Virus record (IMG/VR): IMGVR_UViG_3300037961_001347
Coordinates: 1 to 48,263 of that record
Reading direction: 5' to 3' (one strand)
DNA length: 48,263 nt
Source of the DNA: a virus
Below, piece by piece: positions 3,514 through 35,513 of the stretch. The position numbers and the translations under genes are program-made. Each line of letters begins with the position of its first letter. Within the stretch, counting starts at the first letter, position 1. The notes under the pieces were generated by a model. It saw only the letters and a program-made list of their open reading frames with translations, ran no database searches and was not told the DNA's origin.

Positions 3514-3863
3514 CGTGTTATCCTTTCAATTACTTCTATATCCCCTTCTAAATCTCTATATTTTACTCCAGCACTATCTGTTCTAAAAATATCATAAATT
3601 AAATTATCTCCTGGTAAAGCAGCAGTATCTAAATCAGATAAAGAAAAAGTAACTTGTCCTCCACTTGCATTTGTAATATTTACAGTAAAAGATATATCAG
3701 AACCACTTCTTTGGATAGCGTCTGTTTCAGGACTTCTTCTAATCTTTGAAGTAAACGTAGCACCGCTTAAGTTAATTGCAGTTCCATCAGAATGTTTTAA
3801 TGTTATTTCTAAACTAAAGTCTACCCCTTGTTCTAAAACTATGTTATGTTTTGCTGCTGCCAT
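3510..3863 (-). CDS. Ig-like / BppU-type tail protein
   Basis: 117 aa. The pattern 'I.LEQG.DF...ITLK..DGT.INLSGATF.SKIRRS ... G.VTFSLSDLDTAALPG.NLIYDI...D..G..YRDLEGDIEVIERITR' fits the small immunoglobulin-like domain found in tail and baseplate proteins such as the BppU N-terminus. It lacks a second domain, so it probably serves as an adaptor or decoration at the tail tip. The downstream gene overlaps its stop by 4 nt. Family likeness is by recognition of the pattern, not a search. Confidence 0.65.
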   Translation of the reverse strand: MAAAKHNIVLEQGVDFSLEITLKHSDGTAINLSGATFTSKIRRSPETDAIQRSGSDISFTVNITNASGGQVTFSLSDLDTAALPGDNLIYDIFRTDSAGVKYRDLEGDIEVIERITR

Positions 3864-3871
3864 TTTTACCT

Positions 3872-4267
3872 CTAATAACTATGTTGATTAATTGAATAAT
3901 TAGAATCATCTTTGCCACGATTCTTATATTTTTTAGCCATCATTACACATTCTTTATATTCTGCTTTGTAATACATTGCCTGTTGTATGTTACCAGCAGA
4001 TGCGTGTAATTGTTGTAATACTCTATACATTGGAGCTTCATGAAACTCTGAGGGAAAACTAGGACTAGCAGTTAAATCTGCTGTAAACCTTGTACTTTTT
4101 TTAGCATAATGTATTCTGATAGTATCCCCTGCTGTTAACTCAGTACTATCTAAAGAAGTTAACTTATCTTTTACATAATCCCATTTAGCAACAACCAAAG
4201 TATAATCTCTTAAAGTATATACTAAATCATTTGTTGGCCAGTCAAAATCTTTTGCTACCTGTGTCAT
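3872..4267 (-). CDS. Probable head-tail connector / neck protein
   Basis: 131 aa. It contains a beta-rich N-terminal half ('DYTLVVAKWDYVKDKLTSL', 'AGDTIRIHYAKKS') and an alpha-helical C-terminal half rich in Met, Lys and Tyr ('QQAMYYKAEYKECVMMAKKYKNRGK'). It overlaps the gene upstream by 4 nt and is third in the row of small proteins after the capsid gene, the usual place for connector and neck proteins. No specific family recognised. Confidence 0.55.
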   Translation of the reverse strand: MTQVAKDFDWPTNDLVYTLRDYTLVVAKWDYVKDKLTSLDSTELTAGDTIRIHYAKKSTRFTADLTASPSFPSEFHEAPMYRVLQQLHASAGNIQQAMYYKAEYKECVMMAKKYKNRGKDDSNYSINQHSY

Positions 4268-4554
4268 GATATATCAGTCTCCTCTATAACTCCTGTAAAT
4301 CTTTTAATTTGTTTATTATTGTAATCTACTCTATCTATACTAAGTACATCATCATTGCTTGTTATACCAGTAAAATCAGTAAATGCATATCTTCTTTTAT
4401 CGTCAGCTGTAACTGATACAGTAGCAGTACCTCTTTCTAACTCTACTTCACTATCAAATTTGTCAAGTGCTCTATTAAGCATCAAACGTATTTGTGTTTC
4501 CCCTATATTTGGAAAGTCTTGTTGTATAGTTTCAATCATTTCTTGTTGTTTCAT
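4264..4554 (-). CDS. Small structural (neck) protein
   Basis: 96 aa: a helical N-terminus (MKQQEMIETIQQDFPNIGET, 'LMLNRALDKFDSEVE') followed by a beta-hairpin part ('VSVTADDKRRYAFTDF'). It overlaps both neighbours by 4 nt (ATGA), so it is translationally coupled to the 206-aa and 131-aa proteins. Composition and position point to a virion neck/connector component; the family is not recognised. Confidence 0.55.
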   Translation of the reverse strand: MKQQEMIETIQQDFPNIGETQIRLMLNRALDKFDSEVELERGTATVSVTADDKRRYAFTDFTGITSNDDVLSIDRVDYNNKQIKRFTGVIEETDIS

Positions 4555-13493: not shown

Positions 13494-13530
13494 AATCCCT
13501 ACTTGCAAGATAAGTAGGTAGGGATTTTTC
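13494..13530 (+). terminator. Intrinsic terminator
   Basis: A 9-bp stem AATCCCTAC (13494-13502) with GTAGGGATT (13518-13526), with a further short CTT/AAG pairing in the loop, runs straight into TTTTC. It ends the first early gene and abuts copy 2 of the T-rich motif. Confidence 0.7.
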
Positions 13531-13995: not shown

Positions 13996-14148
13996 ATGAA
14001 CTATCAGGTTATATTACCTAAAAAAACCCTCATTGTTAGAGGTTCTAATGCTCATTCAGTATTAGAGTATATTAAATCTTTGCCATCTTTCAGACAACTT
14101 ACATTGTCTGAGCAGATGTCTGTGAAGATTAAAAGGGCATCATTATGA
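13996..14148 (+). CDS. Small early protein
   Basis: 50 aa from the ATG at 13996 (MNYQVILPKKTLIVRGSNAH, then SVLEYIKSLPSFRQLTLSEQMSVKIKRASL), with CAGGGAG 6-8 nt upstream. An in-frame ATG at 13957 lies inside the T-rich motif, lacks a ribosome site and is rejected as start. A beta-strand, helix, beta-strand layout. Its stop overlaps the next start (ATGA). Function unknown. Confidence 0.6.
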   Translation: MNYQVILPKKTLIVRGSNAHSVLEYIKSLPSFRQLTLSEQMSVKIKRASL

Positions 14149-14285
14149 GGTGCCCTTTAATATACAAATCAGATTTAGTTAACTATGTGCATAGTCTTAA
14201 CAAATCCATACCTAAATATAAAATAGCTAAAAAATCAAAACAGCAATTATATGCTATATGGTATGCAACACAAAAGAAATGGTAG
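14145..14285 (+). CDS. Small basic early protein
   Basis: 46 aa (MRCPLIYKSDLVNYVHSLNK, then SIPKYKIAKKSKQQLYAIWYATQKKW), starting in a 4-nt ATGA overlap with the previous gene. Lys-rich; the C-terminal half 'KIAKKSKQQLYAIWYATQK' looks like a short helical DNA- or RNA-binding segment of the kind seen in small phage proteins. The stop codon lies within the left arm of the inverted repeat 14277-14346. Confidence 0.55.
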   Translation: MRCPLIYKSDLVNYVHSLNKSIPKYKIAKKSKQQLYAIWYATQKKW

Positions 14286-14402: not shown

Positions 14403-14645
14403 ATGGACAAACAATACTACACTCAATTCGTAAACTCAAATGGCGACACAATCACTTCAGCTCAGGTTGGACCTGAGACGAAGTTCTTTGTCACCATCGT
14501 TGATGCAAAAGCAGACGCATCAACAATTCAATCCGAAGTAGAAAGCAAACTTAATCAGTTAGCATTCAAGTTTGAGTTGAAAGGAGAATACACCACGAAG
14601 AAAGGACATCGTGGTCTATTCTATGTAGCTCCAGACTTATTCTAA
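14403..14645 (+). CDS. Small early protein, unknown
   Basis: 80 aa (MDKQYYTQFVNSNGDTITSA, 'QVGPETKFFVTIVDAKADASTIQSEVESKLNQLAFKFELKG', 'GLFYVAPDLF'). GAGGAGGGA precedes the ATG. Alternating beta and helix suggest a compact alpha/beta fold. Its codons use more C at third positions than the neighbours, which may reflect high expression or a different origin. Own motif-gene-hairpin unit. Function unknown. Confidence 0.65.
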   Translation: MDKQYYTQFVNSNGDTITSAQVGPETKFFVTIVDAKADASTIQSEVESKLNQLAFKFELKGEYTTKKGHRGLFYVAPDLF

Positions 14646-14662
14646 GTCTTGAACTACAAATT

Positions 14663-14689
14663 GAGCGAGGGGCTTACGCCCCTCTTCTC
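14663..14689 (+). terminator. Strong hairpin after 80-aa gene
   Basis: GAGGGGC (14667-14673) and GCCCCTC (14678-14684) with a TTAC loop, extended by GAG/CTC after a small bulge. No T-run follows directly; the long T-run comes only after the tandem repeat at 14692-14738. It acts as a transcript end or as a stabilising 3' hairpin. Confidence 0.6.
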
Positions 14690-14691
14690 AG

Positions 14692-14738
14692 TTGCGTATT
14701 GCCACAACAACCGATTTGCGTATACGCACAACAACCGA
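14692..14738 (+). repeat. Tandem repeat of 23-nt unit
   Basis: Two copies of TTGCGTAT-NNN-CACAACAACCGA (14692-14714 and 14716-14738), differing mainly in the three middle bases, spaced one base apart. They lie between a strong hairpin and T-rich motif copy 5. Possible protein-binding site for control of the non-coding RNA that follows. Confidence 0.7.
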
Positions 14739-14766
14739 GTTTTTTTCTTTATGGTTTTTTTTCTTT
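14739..14766 (+). promoter_or_regulatory. T-rich motif, copy 5
   Basis: CTTTATGGTTTTTTTTCTTT, a slightly changed copy. Unlike the other copies it is followed by no protein gene but by the structured region 14766-15241, which supports a promoter role over a translation leader. Confidence 0.5.
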
Positions 14767-15241
14767 ATATTTCACAATGTATGCTTGAATATATAAGTCG
14801 CTCTTATGTAGGATAGTAGAATGTGTAAACCTGTGAACAAAGCACGCCAGCGGTCGTGTGCTACGATTTCAGGTACAATGTTTACCCGATATGGATTGGG
14901 ATTATGCAAGTGCATAACCAAGTCAAAAGACAAACATTGGTAGTATGGTGTAAAATCCGCCTAAGACGAGGCCAATGCTTGCATTGGCAAGGAAAGGAGG
15001 TTAGTAGCACGATTACTTTAAGCATAGTCAACAAGGTCAAACCTCGAGCCTTGCTATGTCATATATAATGTATCAACGAGATAGGGTGGGAACACCAATT
15101 CAAACTATCTTGAGGTATGTCCGATAGGGCTATATATGAAGTAATGTCACACTTGCAGTTGCAAAGCAAGGGTAGTGGCAAACAAATCAACATACTTGTA
15201 GGATAGCCAAGCCCTACACACATTCACACATTGGAAATGTA
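14766..15241 (+). ncRNA. Candidate large structured RNA (~476 nt)
   Basis: No credible ORF. The ends pair: 14766-14780 with 15228-15241, about 13-14 bp with one bulged A and one G-U. Inside are many local stems: GTAAAC/GTTTAC (about 14825-14885) around AGCAC/GTGCT; TTGG-TTATGC/GCATAA-CCAA (about 14897-14920); GCCAATGC/GCATTGGC (about 14971-14988); CATAG-CAAGG/CCTTG-CTATG (about 15023-15057); AGATAG/CTATCT enclosing GGTG/CACC (15080-15110); CTTGC/GCAAG; TGTAGG/CCTACA. The composition is richer in G+C than the flanks. It follows a motif copy and precedes a T-rich stretch (15253-15270). It recalls phage 'ornate large' RNAs (GOLLD, ROOL) in size and setting, but I see no specific match. Confidence 0.55.
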
Positions 15242-15270
15242 TTGCATAATTATAAAATTTTTATTATTGT

Positions 15271-15315
15271 ATCGACTTCGTCGATATAGTTATTTCGTAT
15301 AGGGCTTTGCCCTAT
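15271..15315 (+). promoter_or_regulatory. Two perfect hairpins before the 117-aa gene
   Basis: ATCGAC-TTC-GTCGAT (15271-15285) and ATAGGGC-TTT-GCCCTAT (15299-15315). The second ends 5 nt before the AGGAGG ribosome site of the 117-aa gene. Both have 3-nt loops, the size of hairpin promoters used by the N4 virion polymerase, but they could equally be terminators or leader stems. Confidence 0.5.
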
Positions 15316-15328
15316 GTTAGGAGGTCAT

Positions 15329-15682
15329 ATGAATAATGACAAACGAATGTTAATATTAGTAGGTATCGGGTTGCTAATATTAGCATACTTAGCTTGGGTT
15401 AATATGATGTATAATCCAAGTAGCAACAGCAATAGTGTTGGCGTATTGCCAAAACATCCGACACAATCGGAATACACATTGCCAGAACTTTCAGACGAGG
15501 AACAAGCTGTATCTGATAGTTTGCATAAATCTTATGTCAAACAAGCAGAAGCAGAATCTGAAAGTAAAAGCATAGAAAGTATGCGTGATGAAGTGCAAGA
15601 AATCTTAGATGAAATAGTAGAAGAAGATAGCACAGTCACAATTACATTCAATATGCAATGGACACCTTCTTGGGTCCAATAA
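15329..15682 (+). CDS. Single-pass membrane protein with acidic tail
   Basis: 117 aa from ATG 15329, chosen because TAGGAGG lies 5-7 nt upstream; an in-frame ATG at 15314 falls in the hairpin. Residues about 7-26 (MLILVGIGLLILAYLAWVNM) are one membrane segment, followed by a Pro/Ser/Asn linker and an acidic helical domain (residues 50-105, 'LSDEEQAVSDSLHKSYVKQAEAESESKSIE'). It is probably an inner-membrane protein with the acidic part outside. Early position argues against a lysis role; superinfection exclusion or host membrane take-over is possible. No family recognised. Confidence 0.65.
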   Translation: MNNDKRMLILVGIGLLILAYLAWVNMMYNPSSNSNSVGVLPKHPTQSEYTLPELSDEEQAVSDSLHKSYVKQAEAESESKSIESMRDEVQEILDEIVEEDSTVTITFNMQWTPSWVQ

Positions 15683-15757
15683 CAAGAGAGTAATCTTTTA
15701 ACCAGTCAGTGGATTGTTTTTCTATTTCCATATGTAAACTCTCTTGGTCCACTGACT
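15683..15757 (+). ncRNA. Candidate H-type pseudoknot element
   Basis: CAAGAGAGT (15683-15691) pairs with ACTCTCTTG (15738-15746), and AGTCAGTGGA (15704-15713) pairs with TCCACTGACT (15748-15757). The two perfect stems (9 and 10 bp) are interleaved and their right arms are separated by one base, so both can form only as a pseudoknot with near-continuous stacking. It begins on the base after the stop of the 117-aa gene. Alternative: two mutually exclusive switch states. Confidence 0.6.
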
Positions 15758-15762
15758 AACAT

Positions 15763-15934
15763 TGTATGCGTATATGATAGGGTGTGAACTGTCTGGTACG
15801 GGTCTATAAATTCCCTGAGATATCTTGAAAATCGCCATAGTGTGCTTAGGTATAGGTTTGTTTTTAATAGAAACTCCTTTGTTAGTTCCTATATCAGGAG
15901 CGGACACGGATTGATAGAGTAATATATGCATACA
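15763..15934 (+). ncRNA. Structured element, 13-bp closing stem
   Basis: TGTATGCGTATAT (15763-15775) pairs with ATATATGCATACA (15922-15934), 13 bp with one G-U, enclosing 146 non-coding nt. Inside, TATAGG (about 15851) with CCTATA (about 15888) interleaves with CTCCT (about 15874) and AGGAG (about 15896), again a possible pseudoknot with adjacent right arms. It forms a tandem pair with the element at 15683-15757 and ends 29 nt before the next start. Confidence 0.6.
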
Positions 15935-15962
15935 AAAAATTTCATAATAAATAGGAGAAATA

Positions 15963-24895: not shown

Positions 24896-24951
24896 GCCTA
24901 GAAGCTCTTAAAATAATTTATTGGATATAACTATCGACTAAATATAGTTAT
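24896..24951. terminator. Convergent junction, weak hairpin
   Basis: The 52 nt between the convergent modules contain an AT-only 8-bp inverted repeat (ATAACTAT 24927-24934 with ATAGTTAT 24944-24951), the right arm covering the stop codon of the giant gene. Too weak for a confident terminator. Confidence 0.3.
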
Positions 24952-27900
24952 TCTGAATTAGCAATATTTTCACGCAATTCTTGCTCTTCTTCTACTTTTT
25001 GACGTTGTTTCTTAATATGTTGACCCATTCTGTGTATAGGTATACCAGTTAGGAAGTCAACAGACATAGATGGCGATTGATAAGACCTATATATATCTCT
25101 ACCTAATCTACCAAACGGTGCAAACGTAGCAAGTTGGAATTTTACTAAACTATCAAAATCACCAGAAGCAATAGCATTAATAGGTGGTAATACATATCTA
25201 GCTATAGGTGGTGTAACTATTTGTAATGGTGCAAATGCTGTTGTAGGCCATTGACTAAAGAATGCACGTTCTCTTTCTTTTTCATCTCCAAATAACCATT
25301 GTGCAGTATCTTGCATCCATGACATTGGTGGTGATAACGAGTATTCAAATATTGTAGATGTAAATATTGATGCTAATGCCATAGACATTAAATCAGCAGT
25401 CATCTGTCTTTGAAACACTTTACTACTATTAGTTGTATTGCTCCATTCAGTATATCTTGCTCCTTTATATAGCAATCTTCTTCTTTTTACACTATTCCAA
25501 GCATAAGGATGGAAACGTGTCATTACTCTACCTAATGATGTATTAGCATAATTAGTTCTAAATGCTGAGTGATATATAAACTGTGATGATTCAATACCTT
25601 TACGTGCTATATGCATTAACATTGGTGAGTTGTAAGCTAGTTCACTTGTGAGTGGCATCATTACATCTCTTGCATTTAAATAATGTGCTAATGCTGCTGT
25701 ACGTCTTAATTTAATTTCAGTAGCACTCATAAATGTAGAACCAAATTTTACTAACGCATCAAACACTCCATACTTTGCACCTATTTCTTTGATAGTTGCT
25801 TTTCTAATTTTATCAAACTCTGTTGGATTACTGTCTAACAATTCTTTGTTTTTAGGTGTAAACAACTTATTAATAATTTCTTTAGCTGCCTTATTCATAT
25901 CAGCATCTCTAAATGTTTTATTAATACCTGCTTGCTCAATATACATACCTTCTAAGAATCCTTCTTGCGATAACCAAGTTTCTATATCTCTAAAACTTTC
26001 AAATTTCTTTTCTATAATTTCACCAGTTCTTGGGTTTTTTGTTTTATAAGTAGCACCTTTAAACACTGTATTTATTAAATAATCTTCGCTCATAGCTTGT
26101 CTAAATGGTTTCCATCCTGTATCTGCGTATATGTTTTGACTACCACCAAGTATATTAGTAATTGCTGTTTTAGGGTGTGATAGCAATGACAGTAGTTCCC
26201 ATTTACCTTCAAAGTCTCCAAGTTTTTTTAATTTACGTTGTATAGCTACACGTTTGGCTTCTTCAGATACTTTTCTCATTTCACCTGTAATAGGGTCTTT
26301 TACCATTCTTAAGTCACCAAATATACTAAATTCACCCTCTTTATATCCTAAAAATTTACCAACACGTTCTTCAACACTTCTAATAGCATTTACACCTGCT
26401 GCATCTGATGTTAAATGATACAATGTACCAAATCTGTTGATTTTGTTAATGTTTTTAACATCATTTAATTTTTTAGCAGCATTCATTCTATAATCTTGTA
26501 TTGCTTTTCTTAGTTCACTTCCTGTTAAATTATCTCCCATTCTTTTATACCAATAACTATCAGGTGCTATGTATGCATCTATGTCTCTTAAAAATTGTTT
26601 ACGACTGTAATTATTTCCAATTTTGTTTTTAATTTTTTGCTTATCTAAACCAGCATCTATATATGCTTGTAGCAATCCTTTTTCTGCCTTGGTAATACCT
26701 GCTAATTCAAAATTTCTCATACTAGCCATACCCATCATATTTTGCAATGACTCTCTCATGTATCCAGTCCAAGCTTCAGTTGCATTTACATCTTTTAATG
26801 CATTTGTTTTTTTAAATGTGTCTATTAACATTGTGCTTCTTAATCCTGTTAAAGTGTCAATGTAAGACTTTGATGCTGCTTTTGTATATCTACCTAAAAC
26901 ATTTAAATCTTTACCAAATCCAGGCATAATATCTTGTCCTTTAGATTGTAAATGTCCTGCCATAAATGGACCTACTACTTGACTTTTATTACCACCTACT
27001 AACTGTGTCATATTATCTGCCATACCAGCATTTTCATTACGCATACGTTGCATACTAATTAATAAATGGTCTCTTATTTCATTTAAAAAACGTTCTTTAG
27101 CTATAGTTAAGTTTTCATAACCTTCTGCTCTAGCTTTATGTAATGCTTTAATATGTGGAGGTAATTGTTCTACGCCCATATCTCTAATCTTCTTTTGTGC
27201 TTCAACCATTAATTTAGCTATATGAGCATCTATATTTTTTTTGTTTGCTGAAAATTGATTGTGATTTGTAAAGTTCCAATAGTTTGATGGTCTACCATTA
27301 GAGTCTAGTTGCAATCTTACAAGTTCTGGTTTTGTAAATTGTCTAATTGCATTTGCTTCTCTTAATATTTCTGGTGTAATTGTGCTAGGTTTTTTTGGGT
27401 CAAACTCTGGATAAATTTTATTACCATTAACATCTTTTAAATTTTGTATACTTCTAATCAATTCGTATTCGTATTTGTAATACATTAATTCATTCATACC
27501 TATAAGGTTTTCCATTAAATCTACCTTACTTTTTGTACCCATTTTCATGTCTTTCATTAAACGTTGCACTTTATTTACATCTAAAAATCCATTTGTTAAT
27601 ACTCTTTTCCTAGCATTATCAGTTAACTTAACATTTCCTGCTTTGTCTGTTATTGTATTTACATTGTATATATTTTTTACAAACAAGTCGTAAAAGTCTG
27701 TAATACGTTCGTTTACAATATCTATCATTTCTTCTGGTTTTACTTTACGCTCGTTTCCCTTTCCTGATGTTTCATCTAATATTCTAAATTCTTTATGTTC
27801 TTTATCCATTCTACGTAGTTCTGCTTCACTACGCTCCCATGACTCTCTAAAATCTTTTTTAATATGTTCTGCTAAACGTAGTCCACCAAAAGAACCATTA

Positions 27901-30900
27901 TCATAAATACGTTTGTTAATTGCTGCTTCAATTAATAAATCTTTTTCTGATTGTAATCTTTTATCACCTGTATTGAATACATCAAAAGAATCCTTTAATA
28001 TGTCTTCAAAATAATCCTGCATTGTAGATGCAAACGTATTACCAAACTCTACCTGCTGCCTAACAATTTCTAATGTAGATAATGGTTGCGTTAAACTTTT
28101 TCTTGTAATTTTATATTCACCATCTACTTTGTCTAATACAGGCACATTTTCTTGATATACCTGTAACATTTCTTTTGCACGCAATGTTTTACCAGCACCT
28201 ACAGTATCTGCTTGTTGGAAATAATAATGAAACATTTTTTTAATAGGACTTTTAAAATTTTCTTTCTTTGACCAATATTCATTCCCAAAAACATTTTTAC
28301 CAATCTTAGCACCAAACTTTTTTAATTTACTAATCATAGAACCTCTACTTAAGTAAACATCTTGTATATAATTATTAAAAAATCTTAAATCAGATAACTG
28401 CATACGATTAAATGACTTACCTACTTCAGGCAATCCTGTTAATCCAACCATTTTACTAAACATAGTAAAGTCACCTTCAATAGCAACAGCAATATCAGGA
28501 TTTTTCTCAATAGCATCCAATAAACGTTTAACCTCAAATTCCTGTGCTTCTGTAATTAATGTTTTGTTTTTAACAATTTTACCAGACTCTAATGTTTTCA
28601 TTTCAATAGGCATACTACCTGACTCTAAATAATCTATTTTTTGTTGTTCAGTCATTTGATTATATTCAGTTTCTACTAATTTTTTAGCAGATTCTACAAT
28701 ATCTGTTTCAGTCATATTAAATATATTTTCTAATAATTGAGCTTGTGTTTCGTTTTCTGCTATAACAAAATCTTTATCTTTTTCTAGTAAGTTTTCTATT
28801 TTTACTTTTTTAATTTTGTCAGTTCTTACATCTGCTACAGTACGCTCTACAGTTTCTGCTGCTATTTTTTCTGCTAGGGTTCTTACTGGTGTTTTTTCTG
28901 TAATTTTTTCTGCTGGTCTACGTGTACCTACATTACTTATAGGTGATTTAATATTGCTAGTATCTAATACAACAATTTTTCTATTCAAGGTTTCACCTTT
29001 AGTTACAATATCTTGCATACCTAATAAGAATTGTTGCTTATGATTATTTGGTATAGCATCACTTTTTAACATATTTGGTCTAGATACTTCTATTCTACGT
29101 GCATGGTCAAACAACTTGGCTACTGTATCTGTTGGAATATCATTAATACTTCTGTTTTCTAATTTGCTATTAAAATCTAATAATTTTGCACTGTAATTAC
29201 CTTCTGCTGATGCTATGTTTACATCTAATGATTTTAATGCTTTTTCACCTAATAAAGATAAATCTAATCCATAATCATTTAAAAAATCTGCATCTCTATT
29301 TTTAATTCTATTAAAATAACTTACAACTTTTTTTCTAGTAGTAAATATATTAGACATCAATGCATTACTAAACATCTCGCTCAAAACTTCTGTTATTTCA
29401 GGATTTAATGTTTTCAACTTACCATTTACCCTAATTTTATTAAGACGTTCAGCACGATATTGATTAATAGCAGAATCTAAATCAAACTTAATTGGTTCAA
29501 CATCTAAATACGATTTTTCTTTTACTAAATCTGCTAGCTTTAATTTGTAAGCCATGTCAATTACTTCTGCCATTTTTTCACCAGCAATCTTTTCAGGTAC
29601 ACCAATAGTTTTTAAATATTCTCTTACCTTAGAAGCTTGTACTTCAAAATTTAATAAACCAGTCATTTTCATAACTTGTTCTGTTAAAAATCCTTGGTCG
29701 TATCCATTTATTTTTTTTGCATTTTTTTCTGTTAAAAAACTAGAATACTTATCAAACATTTCACGTATGTTTGCAGTAGGTTGATTTAAAATACTTTTAA
29801 TTTCTGGTCTAATTGCACTAGTAAATGCTAATAATTGTTCATCTAGAATTCCCTGTCTTCTCAAATATGTCATAGTTTCAGAGCTTTTTACTTTATCTAA
29901 AGCTTTTAAAATATTGATAGTATAGTCTCTAAATGTAGCATCGTTTATAGGTTTTATATTTAATGATATATTTTCCATATTAAAAGTATCTGTACCAAAC
30001 TTTTCTGCTATATTTATTAAACTATCTGTATATCTTCTTCCATTCTGTCTATTGTATGAATAATGCTCTACAAAACGTTCAGCTATTTGCGATACACTAC
30101 CTATATCTATTTTACTGCCATTTTCTCCAACACCTTGTTTTAATGCATTTAAAAAGTTTCTTCTAGCTCCAAATGCATCAAACACTTTTAAATCTACATT
30201 GACATAAGCAACATCTTTTAAAACAACATCTGTTCTAGTGCCTTGTTCAAAGCTTACAACCATATTATCAGCATTTACATTTTTAAATACAGGTAACACT
30301 GTATTACCGTCTGCATCTTTTTCTATTACACCAAATTCATTCAATCTCTTTTGTATTCTCTTAAAAGCTGCATAATCAGCAGGGTCGTTAGTTTCTTTGT
30401 ATAATTTTTCAGCTGTTTCGAGTTGTAACTTTGTTGCAAGGTAATCAGCTGATTCACTGTTTCTGATGATTCTAACTTCTTTATTAATAAATATATTAGA
30501 ACTGTTTTCATAAAATCCTGATTTTTCTTGCATTGTAATATTTTCAAGAAAGTCGCTTCTATTCATTTCAAATATTTGTTTATTCTGTCTATGTAATGCA
30601 CTAAAATCTGGACCAATATATACTTGATTTGCTTCTCTACCTGGTACAATATTTATCATATCGCCTCTTATTTTTAAAGATGGTGCTTCAATAGTAAAAT
30701 ACATCTCCATAAGCTTAGCTTGTAAATCTTGTATGTTAGGATTTTTTGCATTCTTAGCACCATCTAAAGTAAGATTTAAAATATTAGGTGCATCTTCACT
30801 TTCAAACTTTCTTAACAACTCTACAGGGTCTCCTTTTGGAACTAAATATGCATCATTGCTATTATTTAATCTTATTCTACCATTACCCTGTATAGCATAA

Positions 30901-33900
30901 TTCAAATGCTCTCTAATAAACTGATTTAAATTAGTAACTTGTCCAATCATTTTACCAACTTTAACAACTTCAGCAGCTTGCTGATGTCTTGCAAATGGTG
31001 AAAAAATATTAGGCACATCTTTCCATAACGCAGGTTCTCCAGGTGCTTTAAATCCTAACTCAGGTCTTTCTCTTGTCAATGATTTATCGCTCAACAAATC
31101 TACAATTTCTTTAGACTTAAATGTTTTCTTTATAGCTTGAGGTACACTTTGGTACATAGCAACAGCATCCCCGTCAAAATCAGCACCACCAGCACGTTTA
31201 ACATTCTTTTTAGACATAATAATACCATTACCAGCAATATCTACAAATCCACCAAAATCTAACGATAATACACCTGATGGATTACCTACTGGACTTCTTA
31301 CTATAACATAATTAATAGCATCTTCTAATTGTTTAATTCTATTTTTATCAGTTTCTGTAGGTTTTTTTCTAGCTCTATACTCTTGTAATTCATTAAAAGC
31401 TTCTTCTAAAGTATAATCTTTACCATTTGCTTTTTTCAAATCTACTTTATCGCCTTTATGACCGCTATGTAAAAAGAAATTAGTATCTGTTAAATTAATT
31501 TTACTTAACAACATAGGGTCTGCTGCCTTCATTCTTACATAAGTATTACCATAATCTATTCTTGGTCTAGATAATCTTGTATGTATATAATTCTTTAATG
31601 CTTGTTCTACGTATTTATGATTGTTACCTATACGTAATATGATAGGATTATAATTAAATTGTTTTAACAAATCGTTAACAGCACGTAATGACACATCATT
31701 ATCTACTACCTCAGATTCAAATCTTTCTTTTATTGTTCCATCTTTTTCAAACAAAGATTCAATTAATTTTGTACCTAATGGCGTATCTATATTTGTATTA
31801 AATAACTCTACTACTTTATCAATACTCATTCTATCTAAATCTAAAGGCCTACCATCTTTCATAATTAATGGTTTATTAACATCAATAGTATTCATATCTA
31901 AGTTCATAACTTCCGTATTATACCCCTTATCACCTTCTAATTGCTTCATAAACAAGTCTTCCATAGCCCTGTTGAACTCTGGTCCAAATGTTATATTACG
32001 CATCATTATAGAGCCAAATGGTAATCTTTGAAATCTTGTATTAGATACTTCACCTTCACTCTTAATTAATTTTATGTCACGTGACTGTACATTAAATGTT
32101 TCACCTTTTTTAGTTAATTTATATGAATCTGTTTTAGCATCATACTCAACCTCTGCCATTTGATGCCTGCTATTAGATTTGTTAGAAGATTCTACAATAA
32201 TAATATCAACGCCTAAATCTTTCATTAATTTATATATACCTTTATGAGTAGCTTGTTCTGCTGATTTGTTAAATACCATACCTCTAGATTTTCCTAAATT
32301 AGAATTGTATACAGGGTCAGTAACTAATACATCTTTTATATATCCTTCTTCTAATCCTCTACCTGCTTCATTTAGTACATCTGCACGCAATCTTTCACTA
32401 TAATATTTTTGTCCATCTGATACACCAAATACACCCGCAGAATCTTTTATAATTATACTCTTAATTCCTTCTGGTCCATATGCACTAGTATCGAACGACA
32501 TTGATGCACCATTTTCTAATACTTTTCTATATTGTGTCCATTTAATTACATTAGCAAACAAAGGGTTCTTTTTGTATGCAAAATAAGCATCTTTAAACAT
32601 TTTAGTGTCTATAGAAAATACAGTACCATCTTTACTTCTAGGCAACAAACCAGCATCTTGAAATTCATACAACATATTACTTAATAATTCTTTTTTGTAA
32701 TCTGCTTTTGTTTCATACATTTCGCCAAAAGGTGTTTTTTCTCCCGTGTTTTTATCAATACGCAAACTATCAAAAAACGATTCATTTCTAACACCTTTTT
32801 TCTTAAACATAGTAAATTGAGTTTCTATAAAATCAAGTATAGGGTCTGCTTCTGGTAAATATCTTTGACTATTAGGGTCTTTGCTCCATGCGTGTCTTCT
32901 AGCATTAATTTCATTGTTTGAAGGATTTAAATGATGAACATATCTGTCTTTTGCTTTTAACTCACTTCCTATATTATAAATGTCTTTAGTAACATTAAAG
33001 GTACTAAAATATGGGTCTACACCAATCTTGCTGCTTGTAGATTCAAATTCACTTTGTTTACCTTCTTTATTTGTTGTACGGATATAATCTATTTTTATAT
33101 CTAATGGTTGGCTACCTTCAATAGCAGTATTGTGATAGGTTTCTTCACGTATCATTCTTAAAGGCTTGTTATACGCATCTGTAGTAGGTGTATCTATAAT
33201 AGTATAGTTAACTTTACCGCCCTCACCTATTGTTTTTAATACAGTTAACGATTGTCTTTCTTTTAATCCACCATATTCAAACCATATTTTATTTAATGGT
33301 GCTTTACTTCCTTTAGCATCTACAAACAATTTTTTCAATCTTTGGAAACTATCAGGTGACATTTCTGCTTTTTTCTGTTTAACATACTCAACTATACCTT
33401 CTATAAACTCTTGTCTATTAGAAGATTTTCTTGCTAGTAATTTCATAATTTTTCTAGTTTCAACAGGATTTAGCTCAGGAACTTCTTTAGAAATATCTTC
33501 TAATAATTCTCTAGCACGATTAACAGACTTTGTTAAATTAGGGTCTTCTACTCTAGATTGGTTGTTATTATCTCTTGTAGGCTCTGGTTGTGTTTCTTGT
33601 TCAGGTTTTAATAAAATATCTAATGCAGACCTTTCTGCATCTGTTTTAATTTCGTTAGAACGTATAGATTCTACTTTTACAGCTTTTTGTGTTAATATAA
33701 CATTATCTAATTCTCCAGGAACTTTATTAGCTTTATTAACTAATTTTGCTAACTCTACTTTGAGTTGTTCTTGTATTTCTGTTTTTTGTTCATTAGATAA
33801 TTCGTTTAATTTTTTATTTCTAAACTGTTCAGGTATAAACTCTGAATTAGGCAATCTAAATTCAGGATTAAATACATTTTTTGTAAAATATGTAGACTTG

Positions 33901-35513
33901 TCTACTTCTACTATATCTTTACCAGGACCTTTTACAAACACTTTACCATCAGCTGCTCTTTCTACAGTAACAGCTTCTGTTTTACCGTCAAATGTGTATA
34001 AGTCAATTATATCTCCTTGCTTAACATTTGATATATCTACATCAGGCCTTGCTGCTAAATCTTTTTGTTTAGCTTCAATAAAATCTTTTTCTTTAATAGT
34101 TAAATCTAACTTAGCTTGTTTATTAGCTTCTAAATATATTCTAATCTTTTCTCTTTTACTTAGAGTTTCTATACCAATATCACCCATAGCATCAAGTTTT
34201 GTTTTAATAGCTTCTAATACAACATCACCTTGATTATTACCTATTCTATTAATCTGGTCTAATACTAAATCAGCTTGAAACGCATCTACATATTTTTTTT
34301 CTTTAGGTCCTAAATCTTTATACCATTGCATTTTAGTAATATCGGCACCGTTAATAATCATATTCTGACCTTCTTGTACAACAGTAAGTATTTTATCTGG
34401 TTCTCCTTTTTTACCTACCATGTTTTCTACAAGTGCTTGCGTAGCACGTTGTTCAAACTTAGGCCTACCTGCTGCTCCAAAAAAGAATCCTAATAAATAT
34501 TCATATACTTGGTCTGCAAAAGGTGCATTCTGCATAGATGCCTGACCGCCTGTAAAAGCAGAACCTAATGTACCTCTTGTAATAAAATCTATGTATTGTG
34601 CTCTATCATAATCTATGCCACGACTTGTTTTTCCTAGTGTTTGTATTTGTGGACCAACAGCATCATCTGCTATTTCTTTAATTTTACTTTCAGCCATTTT
34701 AACTTGTGCACGATTTCTTGACGCTAACATAGTACCTAAATTAACATAATTTCTTACACCTCCAAAAAATGCACCTGCTAATGCACCATGTTGTGCTGAT
34801 TCTGCCCAACCTTCAGGCCCATCTTTACGTGCAGATACAGCCATTGCTATACCTAAATGTGCACTTTCTTCCATTATCTCTAACAACTCAGGATGTTGTG
34901 CTAATTTTTTACCTATATAATTATTACGTAAAAACTCTGCACCACCTAATCGTGATTTACCTTGTTCAATTACCCAATCTGCTGCTTTCATAGGTATAGA
35001 ACGTAATTGTAATCCACCTGCCTGGTCAGTTCTAGTTAATGCTGGTATGTATTTTTTACCAAAATCGCCTAAACCTTCTTTAACACGTTCTCCAGCTTTT
35101 AATCTTGCAGCTCTAAATGCAGATTTTTTAGCAACGCTTCCAGGCAATGATGCACCAAAGGTAAAAACACCTGCAATAATATCAGGTGCAAAACCAACTA
35201 AATGTCCAACTTTATTTAATATTGCTTCTGTTTGAGTATCTGGGTCATCTGCCCAACCAAATGTAGTAAAACCTTCAACAACACCACTTGCTAATTGATT
35301 CATAGCACCTACTAGTGCATTTTCTTGTGCTGCAGGGTCTTTTTCGAATGGTATATTACGTTCTTTTGCAAATTGATAAAACTGTTCTACTTGGTCTTCA
35401 CTAAAAGAATCAGGATTATCATAGTAAGATTTCATCGATATTTCAGCATATCGTTTTTCATCTAGGTATCCACGCTCATACAAGCGTCGCATCTGTTGAT
35501 ACTGTTTATTCAT
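24948..35513 (-). CDS. Giant virion protein with DFDGD RNA polymerase motif
   Basis: 3,521 aa, 22% of the window. Residues about 1410-1460 read 'VRSPVGNPSGVLSLDFGG...ADFDGDAVAMYQSVP', with D1445-F-D1447-G-D1449. This parallels the beta-prime catalytic barrel of multisubunit RNA polymerases (NADFDGDQMAVH, after the RAPTLHRLG segment). About 350 residues earlier, 'VSDGQKYYSERLR' and 'KGIYKLMKDLGVDIIIVESSNK' may belong to a beta-like barrel with the expected lysines. That order is the one used by single-chain polymerases of crAss-like phages. N- and C-terminal thirds are long, helical and partly hydrophobic (about residues 3370-3470), like ejection proteins. Last of the virion operon, beside lysozyme and internal proteins, so probably packaged and injected. 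N4 virion polymerase has similar length but a T7-type fold; none of its motifs are seen here. Confidence 0.72.
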   Translation of the reverse strand: MNKQYQQMRRLYERGYLDEKRYAEISMKSYYDNPDSFSEDQVEQFYQFAKERNIPFEKDPAAQENALVGAMNQLASGVVEGFTTFGWADDPDTQTEAILNKVGHLVGFAPDIIAGVFTFGASLPGSVAKKSAFRAARLKAGERVKEGLGDFGKKYIPALTRTDQAGGLQLRSIPMKAADWVIEQGKSRLGGAEFLRNNYIGKKLAQHPELLEIMEESAHLGIAMAVSARKDGPEGWAESAQHGALAGAFFGGVRNYVNLGTMLASRNRAQVKMAESKIKEIADDAVGPQIQTLGKTSRGIDYDRAQYIDFITRGTLGSAFTGGQASMQNAPFADQVYEYLLGFFFGAAGRPKFEQRATQALVENMVGKKGEPDKILTVVQEGQNMIINGADITKMQWYKDLGPKEKKYVDAFQADLVLDQINRIGNNQGDVVLEAIKTKLDAMGDIGIETLSKREKIRIYLEANKQAKLDLTIKEKDFIEAKQKDLAARPDVDISNVKQGDIIDLYTFDGKTEAVTVERAADGKVFVKGPGKDIVEVDKSTYFTKNVFNPEFRLPNSEFIPEQFRNKKLNELSNEQKTEIQEQLKVELAKLVNKANKVPGELDNVILTQKAVKVESIRSNEIKTDAERSALDILLKPEQETQPEPTRDNNNQSRVEDPNLTKSVNRARELLEDISKEVPELNPVETRKIMKLLARKSSNRQEFIEGIVEYVKQKKAEMSPDSFQRLKKLFVDAKGSKAPLNKIWFEYGGLKERQSLTVLKTIGEGGKVNYTIIDTPTTDAYNKPLRMIREETYHNTAIEGSQPLDIKIDYIRTTNKEGKQSEFESTSSKIGVDPYFSTFNVTKDIYNIGSELKAKDRYVHHLNPSNNEINARRHAWSKDPNSQRYLPEADPILDFIETQFTMFKKKGVRNESFFDSLRIDKNTGEKTPFGEMYETKADYKKELLSNMLYEFQDAGLLPRSKDGTVFSIDTKMFKDAYFAYKKNPLFANVIKWTQYRKVLENGASMSFDTSAYGPEGIKSIIIKDSAGVFGVSDGQKYYSERLRADVLNEAGRGLEEGYIKDVLVTDPVYNSNLGKSRGMVFNKSAEQATHKGIYKLMKDLGVDIIIVESSNKSNSRHQMAEVEYDAKTDSYKLTKKGETFNVQSRDIKLIKSEGEVSNTRFQRLPFGSIMMRNITFGPEFNRAMEDLFMKQLEGDKGYNTEVMNLDMNTIDVNKPLIMKDGRPLDLDRMSIDKVVELFNTNIDTPLGTKLIESLFEKDGTIKERFESEVVDNDVSLRAVNDLLKQFNYNPIILRIGNNHKYVEQALKNYIHTRLSRPRIDYGNTYVRMKAADPMLLSKINLTDTNFFLHSGHKGDKVDLKKANGKDYTLEEAFNELQEYRARKKPTETDKNRIKQLEDAINYVIVRSPVGNPSGVLSLDFGGFVDIAGNGIIMSKKNVKRAGGADFDGDAVAMYQSVPQAIKKTFKSKEIVDLLSDKSLTRERPELGFKAPGEPALWKDVPNIFSPFARHQQAAEVVKVGKMIGQVTNLNQFIREHLNYAIQGNGRIRLNNSNDAYLVPKGDPVELLRKFESEDAPNILNLTLDGAKNAKNPNIQDLQAKLMEMYFTIEAPSLKIRGDMINIVPGREANQVYIGPDFSALHRQNKQIFEMNRSDFLENITMQEKSGFYENSSNIFINKEVRIIRNSESADYLATKLQLETAEKLYKETNDPADYAAFKRIQKRLNEFGVIEKDADGNTVLPVFKNVNADNMVVSFEQGTRTDVVLKDVAYVNVDLKVFDAFGARRNFLNALKQGVGENGSKIDIGSVSQIAERFVEHYSYNRQNGRRYTDSLINIAEKFGTDTFNMENISLNIKPINDATFRDYTINILKALDKVKSSETMTYLRRQGILDEQLLAFTSAIRPEIKSILNQPTANIREMFDKYSSFLTEKNAKKINGYDQGFLTEQVMKMTGLLNFEVQASKVREYLKTIGVPEKIAGEKMAEVIDMAYKLKLADLVKEKSYLDVEPIKFDLDSAINQYRAERLNKIRVNGKLKTLNPEITEVLSEMFSNALMSNIFTTRKKVVSYFNRIKNRDADFLNDYGLDLSLLGEKALKSLDVNIASAEGNYSAKLLDFNSKLENRSINDIPTDTVAKLFDHARRIEVSRPNMLKSDAIPNNHKQQFLLGMQDIVTKGETLNRKIVVLDTSNIKSPISNVGTRRPAEKITEKTPVRTLAEKIAAETVERTVADVRTDKIKKVKIENLLEKDKDFVIAENETQAQLLENIFNMTETDIVESAKKLVETEYNQMTEQQKIDYLESGSMPIEMKTLESGKIVKNKTLITEAQEFEVKRLLDAIEKNPDIAVAIEGDFTMFSKMVGLTGLPEVGKSFNRMQLSDLRFFNNYIQDVYLSRGSMISKLKKFGAKIGKNVFGNEYWSKKENFKSPIKKMFHYYFQQADTVGAGKTLRAKEMLQVYQENVPVLDKVDGEYKITRKSLTQPLSTLEIVRQQVEFGNTFASTMQDYFEDILKDSFDVFNTGDKRLQSEKDLLIEAAINKRIYDNGSFGGLRLAEHIKKDFRESWERSEAELRRMDKEHKEFRILDETSGKGNERKVKPEEMIDIVNERITDFYDLFVKNIYNVNTITDKAGNVKLTDNARKRVLTNGFLDVNKVQRLMKDMKMGTKSKVDLMENLIGMNELMYYKYEYELIRSIQNLKDVNGNKIYPEFDPKKPSTITPEILREANAIRQFTKPELVRLQLDSNGRPSNYWNFTNHNQFSANKKNIDAHIAKLMVEAQKKIRDMGVEQLPPHIKALHKARAEGYENLTIAKERFLNEIRDHLLISMQRMRNENAGMADNMTQLVGGNKSQVVGPFMAGHLQSKGQDIMPGFGKDLNVLGRYTKAASKSYIDTLTGLRSTMLIDTFKKTNALKDVNATEAWTGYMRESLQNMMGMASMRNFELAGITKAEKGLLQAYIDAGLDKQKIKNKIGNNYSRKQFLRDIDAYIAPDSYWYKRMGDNLTGSELRKAIQDYRMNAAKKLNDVKNINKINRFGTLYHLTSDAAGVNAIRSVEERVGKFLGYKEGEFSIFGDLRMVKDPITGEMRKVSEEAKRVAIQRKLKKLGDFEGKWELLSLLSHPKTAITNILGGSQNIYADTGWKPFRQAMSEDYLINTVFKGATYKTKNPRTGEIIEKKFESFRDIETWLSQEGFLEGMYIEQAGINKTFRDADMNKAAKEIINKLFTPKNKELLDSNPTEFDKIRKATIKEIGAKYGVFDALVKFGSTFMSATEIKLRRTAALAHYLNARDVMMPLTSELAYNSPMLMHIARKGIESSQFIYHSAFRTNYANTSLGRVMTRFHPYAWNSVKRRRLLYKGARYTEWSNTTNSSKVFQRQMTADLMSMALASIFTSTIFEYSLSPPMSWMQDTAQWLFGDEKERERAFFSQWPTTAFAPLQIVTPPIARYVLPPINAIASGDFDSLVKFQLATFAPFGRLGRDIYRSYQSPSMSVDFLTGIPIHRMGQHIKKQRQKVEEEQELRENIANSE

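Follow-up and report, generated by a model that had tools for sequence, protein, structure and literature searches.

A large structured noncoding RNA encoded in the early module of uncultured phages of one lineage

A noncoding interval in the early module

The stretch of DNA analyzed here (the window) is the whole 48,263-base viral record IMGVR_UViG_3300037961_001347, which carries in its early region the large structured noncoding RNA (ncRNA) described in this report. The record is without a close isolate; compared with phage records, its terminase showed less than 60% identity (the top rows being at approximately 24–27%) and its portal gave weak matches. The rightward early module begins at approximately 13.5 kb, and a gene-poor interval, 14646–15313, lies between the gene at 14403–14645 and the gene starting at 15314. 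The original prediction, made from the sequence of the window, had described some 550 nucleotides (nt) without a credible gene, and indeed no supported protein gene was found in this interval. The sole candidate, an open reading frame (ORF) with a GTG start, is interrupted in frame by several stops in the relative L027 and has no equivalent in the other members of the RNA family; a coding role is excluded.

The ncRNA has a length of approximately 480–520 nt (Table 1). Its conserved core is 14815–15228, from helix P2 to helix P13, with P0 and P1 outside the core, and the transcript probably runs from about 14766 to 15265–15290.

Table 1. Coordinates of the ncRNA, its helices, and flanking elements in the window
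Feature	Position	Strand	Remarks
Structured ncRNA	14766–15250	+	19-member alignment A7 and covariation
T-rich motif copy (TTTTTCTTTATGGTTTT...)	14742–14767	+	Repeat family D1; directly 5' of the RNA
P0, outer helix	14770–14773/15234–15237 and 14775–14779/15229–15233	+	Rebuilt from other bases in L008 and L027
P1, hairpin with loop UCGCU at 14798–14802	14790–14810	+	Loop kept, arms rewritten
P2, long-range closing helix of core	14815–14826/15218–15228	+	Helix 1
P3, hairpin	14829–14874	+	Covariation
P4, domain	14876–14939	+	Closing helix 14876–14883/14932–14939; encloses P4a, P4b, and P4c
P4b	14896–14921	+	TGC/GCA becomes TAC/GTA and TAT/ATA in relatives
P4c, loop AAAA	14922–14931	+	Part of P4 domain
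P5, long-range helix	14942–14950/15188–15196	+	Helix 5; constrained folds
P6, variable insertion	14957–15000	+	Length varies from member to member
P7, long-range helix	15012–15018/15139–15145	+	Helix 6; 6/6 pairs compensatory
P8, hairpin	15022–15059	+	Helices 7 and 8; 100% and 99% of cells paired
P9, closing helix around P10 and P11	15060–15067/15131–15138	+	
P10, GNRA tetraloop GGAA at 15089–15092 (tip)	15070–15118	+	
P11, GNUA-type tetraloop	15119–15130	+	Helix 11
P12, hairpin	15146–15179	+	3/9 pairs compensatory inside window clade
P13, hairpin (GUAGG/CCUAC)	15198–15217	+	Helix 13
Spurious ORF, 70 amino acids (aa), GTG start	14856–15068	+	Not a gene
Terminator-like hairpin, 11 base pairs (bp), then T-rich tail	15266–15290	+	3/11 pairs compensatory in four relatives
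Second terminator-like hairpin	About 15298–15316	+	Just 5' of the next gene

Homologues and their distribution

Eighteen further distinct homologues were found in environmental viral contigs of one uncultured phage lineage, many of them too diverged for blastn to connect with the window. The family thus comprises 19 aligned distinct members, out of 23 contigs and one partial contig. Exact long-pattern searches recovered just the close relative G001/L009, whose RNA is approximately 87–89% identical to that of the window and whose homologous block opens at 14741, at the motif, the genes upstream being diverged. It was a scan with a terminase alignment, yielding 80 loci of the lineage, that opened up the family. 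The first diverged homologue was spotted by eye in L017, as approximately 880 nt of noncoding sequence with the motif AAGGTCA-N-GAGCCTTGCTA, and the family was enlarged by a motif scan of loci and viral contigs, a covariance model, a second terminase scan, and nhmmer. Scans with the helicase returned one RNA-bearing close relative and L017 only, most other contigs having ended early.

The same terminase was present in all 12 of the RNA-bearing records searched, and the same helicase in the five larger ones; as far as these records show, the RNA is therefore restricted to this lineage. Among contigs reaching at least 7 kb upstream of the terminase, the RNA was found in approximately 10 and none was detected in approximately 32, a detection limit rather than a proof of absence, so that about a quarter of the related phages tested carry it. 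A distant blastn search of the window and two diverged members against 50,697 phage records gave no match, and when 84,980 species genomes of bacteria and archaea were scanned for the exact motif, only a chance match appeared. Several candidates were rejected: an Opitutales match (L132, from genome_contigs), which is due to chance and lies in a GC-rich, apparently coding region; the pattern matches L100–L104, L109–L110, L112, L115, L119–L120, L124–L125, L127, L188, and L191, dropped as chance on their sequence context; and the noncoding gaps of L063, L071, L079, and L096, which on reading proved to hold other small hairpin elements.

Because the occurrence is patchy, an essential role in packaging or replication seems unlikely and an accessory one would be more natural. 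A phi29 pRNA-like packaging RNA would also be a structured RNA encoded by a phage in its early region, but the present RNA was found in only about a quarter of the phages with the same terminase and matched no Rfam family, and we consider this identity hardly credible.

Covariation and selection on the RNA strand

The plus strand of 14739–15270 folds with a minimum free energy of −147 kcal/mol (z = −3.6), which none of 100 shuffled sequences equaled, and its minus strand gave z = −2.7. All aligned members individually exceeded their shuffles in stability, with z from −2.6 to −5.4. Covariation was computed on alignment A7, containing the 19 distinct sequences, using the consensus pairs given by RNAalifold, which amounted to 13 helices and 73 pairs.

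Standard pairs make up 89.4% of the consensus cells, as opposed to 32–43% when the partners were slid by 1–3 columns. Changes on both sides were observed in 52 of the 73 pairs (slid controls, 16–21) and in 224 cells (slid controls, 31–51). When substitutions were reshuffled in a tree-aware manner, the fraction of standard pairs (0.89) and the number of compensatory pairs (52) lay above the maxima of the null, 0.54 and 38, respectively, and the mean covariation score was 6.3 against 0.8. The consensus energy was −91, with a null mean of −15.5 (standard deviation 4). That 14766–15250 (+) carries real RNA structure under selection is practically certain. An alignment of relatives had been named beforehand as the test on which the proposed large structured ncRNA might fail, and the abundant covariation bears the proposal out.

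G-U wobbles outnumber A-C mismatches, 123 to 34, and the constraint is therefore on the plus-strand RNA, the strand of the early genes. The same excess speaks against an element acting as DNA, such as a replication origin or a packaging signal with many hairpins. Although a noncoding, hairpin-rich stretch near the divergent early/late boundary would suit such an element, nested long-range helices over approximately 400 nt are unexpected for DNA signals, and the RNA was not detected in about three quarters of the relatives, making this explanation extremely improbable.

Architecture of the RNA

The end-to-end pairing of the original prediction is real, joining 14770–14779 with 15229–15237 (P0), and had been placed a few nt off; in L008 it is made from different bases (TTTG-T-CATAG with CTATG-CAAA). 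The P1 loop, U[A/C]GCU, is retained in nearly all members, while the letters of the arms are almost wholly different between clades. These arms (3–15 bp) pair around a 5-nt loop in 16 of the 19 members, and those of L099, L118, and L130 close a 7-nt loop. In P2, 100% of the cells are paired, five of the six pairs have changes on both sides, and two pairs reach an expectation value (E) below 0.02 in the two-set test. The base helix of P3 is likewise paired in 100% of the cells, with four of five pairs compensatory, and 14831/14872, in P3, is the top covarying pair in the entire alignment.

The multi-branch P4 domain was found again in other clades, and its CAAUGUUU/AAACAUUG pairing is replaced by GAAUAAUU/AAUUAUUC in L027. 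Two stems singled out at the outset correspond to the covarying P4b (14896–14921) and to P8 (15022–15059), and both are real. In P8, the GCAUAG/CUAUGY stem covaries and the AAGGUCA...GAGCCUU tip is nearly invariant, as is the strand beside P5, AAAUCAACA (15184–15192). The tip of P10 is a GNRA loop (GGAA, GAGA, or GUGA) in 19 of 19 members, its stem letters being rewritten, and the loop of P11 is GATA, GTTA, or GGTA in 18 of 19. Finally, P13 is paired in 95.8% of the cells, with four of five pairs compensatory and two with E < 0.05. The P8 tip, the conserved strand beside P5, and the kept loops look like contact surfaces.

Relation to known RNAs

GNRA-capped arms in large multi-helix folds are common in group I and group II introns, and the fold described here is of that general form. 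However, no Rfam intron or ribozyme model matched, even with E up to 5–10, no gene is interrupted, and the syntenic site in L006 is intergenic. The RNA is accordingly not classed with the group I or group II introns, and a self-splicing intron, an intron remnant, or another ribozyme appears very unlikely.

The whole window gave no match to Rfam 15 at the gathering score, GOLLD and ROOL included, and three diverged members searched with E up to 5–10 gave none to GOLLD, ROOL, introns, or ribozymes. Weak matches to a snoRNA, a miRNA, and hepatitis C virus (HCV) were rejected, being far under the gathering scores and biologically implausible. The proposal that this is a new or highly diverged member of the GOLLD/ROOL-type RNAs thus holds as to the kind of molecule; membership is not detectable in Rfam 15, even with the three diverged members.

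Few large ornate RNAs have been described from bacteria and phages, and what they do is poorly understood (PMC12286853). The window RNA is of this general kind, with its several hundred nt, covarying helices, and lack of a conserved ORF, and ROOL, GOLLD, and OLE are its nearest counterparts in kind. Like ROOL (Rumen-Originating, Ornate, Large), it is a phage-carried ornate ncRNA of several hundred nt and unknown function; like GOLLD, it is large and ornate and occurs in phages and environmental sequences; and like OLE (Ornate Large Extremophilic), of which 577 nt are present in the solved structure (PMC12286853), it has many helices and a similar length. Unlike any of the three, it has no match to their covariance models. 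ROOL, in addition, is often near tRNA islands (PMC12286853), whereas no tRNA genes were found in the window or in 22 related loci (23 sequences scanned), and the window RNA gave a chance match only in the scan of species genomes. It is a new, previously uncatalogued class of large ornate phage ncRNA.

ROOL, GOLLD, and OLE form RNA-only homo-oligomers (PMC12286853), and an assembly of this sort, similar to the ROOL and GOLLD nanocages or to the OLE dimer, would be in line with the size, the ornateness, the many A-rich and GNRA loops, and the phage context, which recall the homo-oligomeric ROOL and GOLLD (PMC12286853). Against it, neither sequence nor covariance models relate the RNA to those families, and the P1 loop, self-complementary (AGCU) in most members, is CGCU in 6 of 19, which counts against a simple kissing-loop dimer there. 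Homo-oligomerization is, on balance, rather unlikely.

A motif-led unit probably acting in trans

The RNA begins right after a copy of a T-rich motif, as had been noticed at the outset, and this motif (D1) occurs in four copies at the heads of successive units, spaced by 423, 404, and 390 nt. Its 16-nt core has 6 matches in the window, with 0.8 expected, a number reached by no shuffle. The RNA takes one slot in this tandem array of motif-led early units. The motif seems promoter- or processing-like. More generally, the form TTTTCTTTATGRTTTT was found on the plus strand at 13525, 13948, 14352, 14742, and 20378, heading early units and often lying just past a hairpin; it may serve this phage lineage as a combined terminator/promoter or as a processing signal.

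The genes on both sides of the RNA change from clade to clade, which argues for action in trans. The alternative would be a large cis-acting leader, that is, a structured 5' untranslated region controlling the small membrane-protein gene 15314–15682. The RNA is directly 5' of this gene, and a small membrane-type protein is also encoded downstream in L116, L062, L123, and L113. Nevertheless, terminator-like hairpins separate the RNA from the gene, an unrelated 125-aa gene lies downstream in L118 and L099, the downstream protein has a homologue in L006 and in L079, both of which lack the RNA, and some 480 nt with closed ends are large for a leader. We therefore regard a leader as unlikely; the best-supported, and probable, reading of the locus is that it gives rise to an early transcript of its own that acts in trans.

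Some observations weigh against this reading and against the structural evidence beneath it. Only one pair had E < 0.1 in the all-against-all covariation test and only six pairs had E < 0.05 in the two-set test, the power of both being low with 19 sequences from a small number of clades, and the consensus structure came from the same alignment used to score covariation. The promoter and terminator roles are themselves read from sequence. In L123 and L131, moreover, the upstream ORF apparently stops inside the 5' arm of P1, approximately 180 nt before the core motif, and an independent promoter may thus not be universal; in this clade, translation or processing may shape the 5' end of the RNA.

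In several clades, the first or second gene upstream of the RNA encodes a small basic protein (46–90 aa), and these proteins resemble one another in appearance (window 14145–14285; L062 5608–5775, minus strand; L123 about 3735–3955, plus strand; L118 1980–2189, plus strand), and one is also present in L006, which lacks the RNA. They matched no Pfam family above the cut-off and are a possible RNA-binding partner.

Other elements of the window and its relatives

Another noncoding stretch, 280 nt long, is present at 15683–15962 with the motif GGAGCGGACACGG. Its identity to G001 is 92.5%, about as high as, or higher than, that at the third codon positions of most neighboring genes, and part of it was seen again in L006 (about 4180–4270), where it precedes a different gene. 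It is probably another structured RNA. Small intergenic hairpins that carry GGTCCAGCAATGGAATAT and TCAGAATAGAGGTA...TACCTCAGTTCTGAATAA form a recurring family, often with several in tandem between early genes. They were observed on the minus strand of L071 (5560–5910), L096 (3400–3860), and L063 (5016–5383), on the plus strand of L017 (3740–3790), and, in L116 and L026, in the 3' flank of the RNA. The minus strand of the window at 24948–35513 encodes a 3,521-aa protein with no PHROG match and no Pfam match above the cut-off; this protein differs strongly from relative to relative (about 22–65% identity).

A possible role early in infection

Taken together, the locus is best explained as a selected ncRNA that is probably made early as its own transcript and would serve as a scaffold in trans. 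Transcription would begin at the T-rich motif and extend as far as the hairpins of 15266–15316, alongside the rightward early genes. The molecule, with a core closed by P2 that holds the multi-branch P4, the long-range P5 and P7, the GNRA-capped P10, and several hairpins, would act as a stable scaffold, its contacts being made through docking of the GNRA loop, the P8 tip, and the AAAUCAACA strand. These contacts may be with host factors, bound or sequestered during takeover, or with other copies of the RNA, as in ROOL and GOLLD. As to the role, our leading guess, put forward tentatively, is that the RNA acts on host factors as a scaffold or decoy in host takeover, the main alternative being an RNA-only assembly.

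The RNA constitutes an independent class, for which 19 diverged members have been aligned and a secondary structure supported by covariation is given in the coordinates of the window. The natural contrast between close phage relatives with and without it offers a comparative way into the question of why such RNAs are carried by phages, and the structure model supplies a defined construct for selective 2'-hydroxyl acylation analyzed by primer extension (SHAPE) and cryo-electron microscopy (cryo-EM). This new phage RNA class, with its own architecture, might conceivably be an RNA-only or RNA-protein machine that works early in lytic infection, disarming or redirecting host machinery in some members of the lineage.
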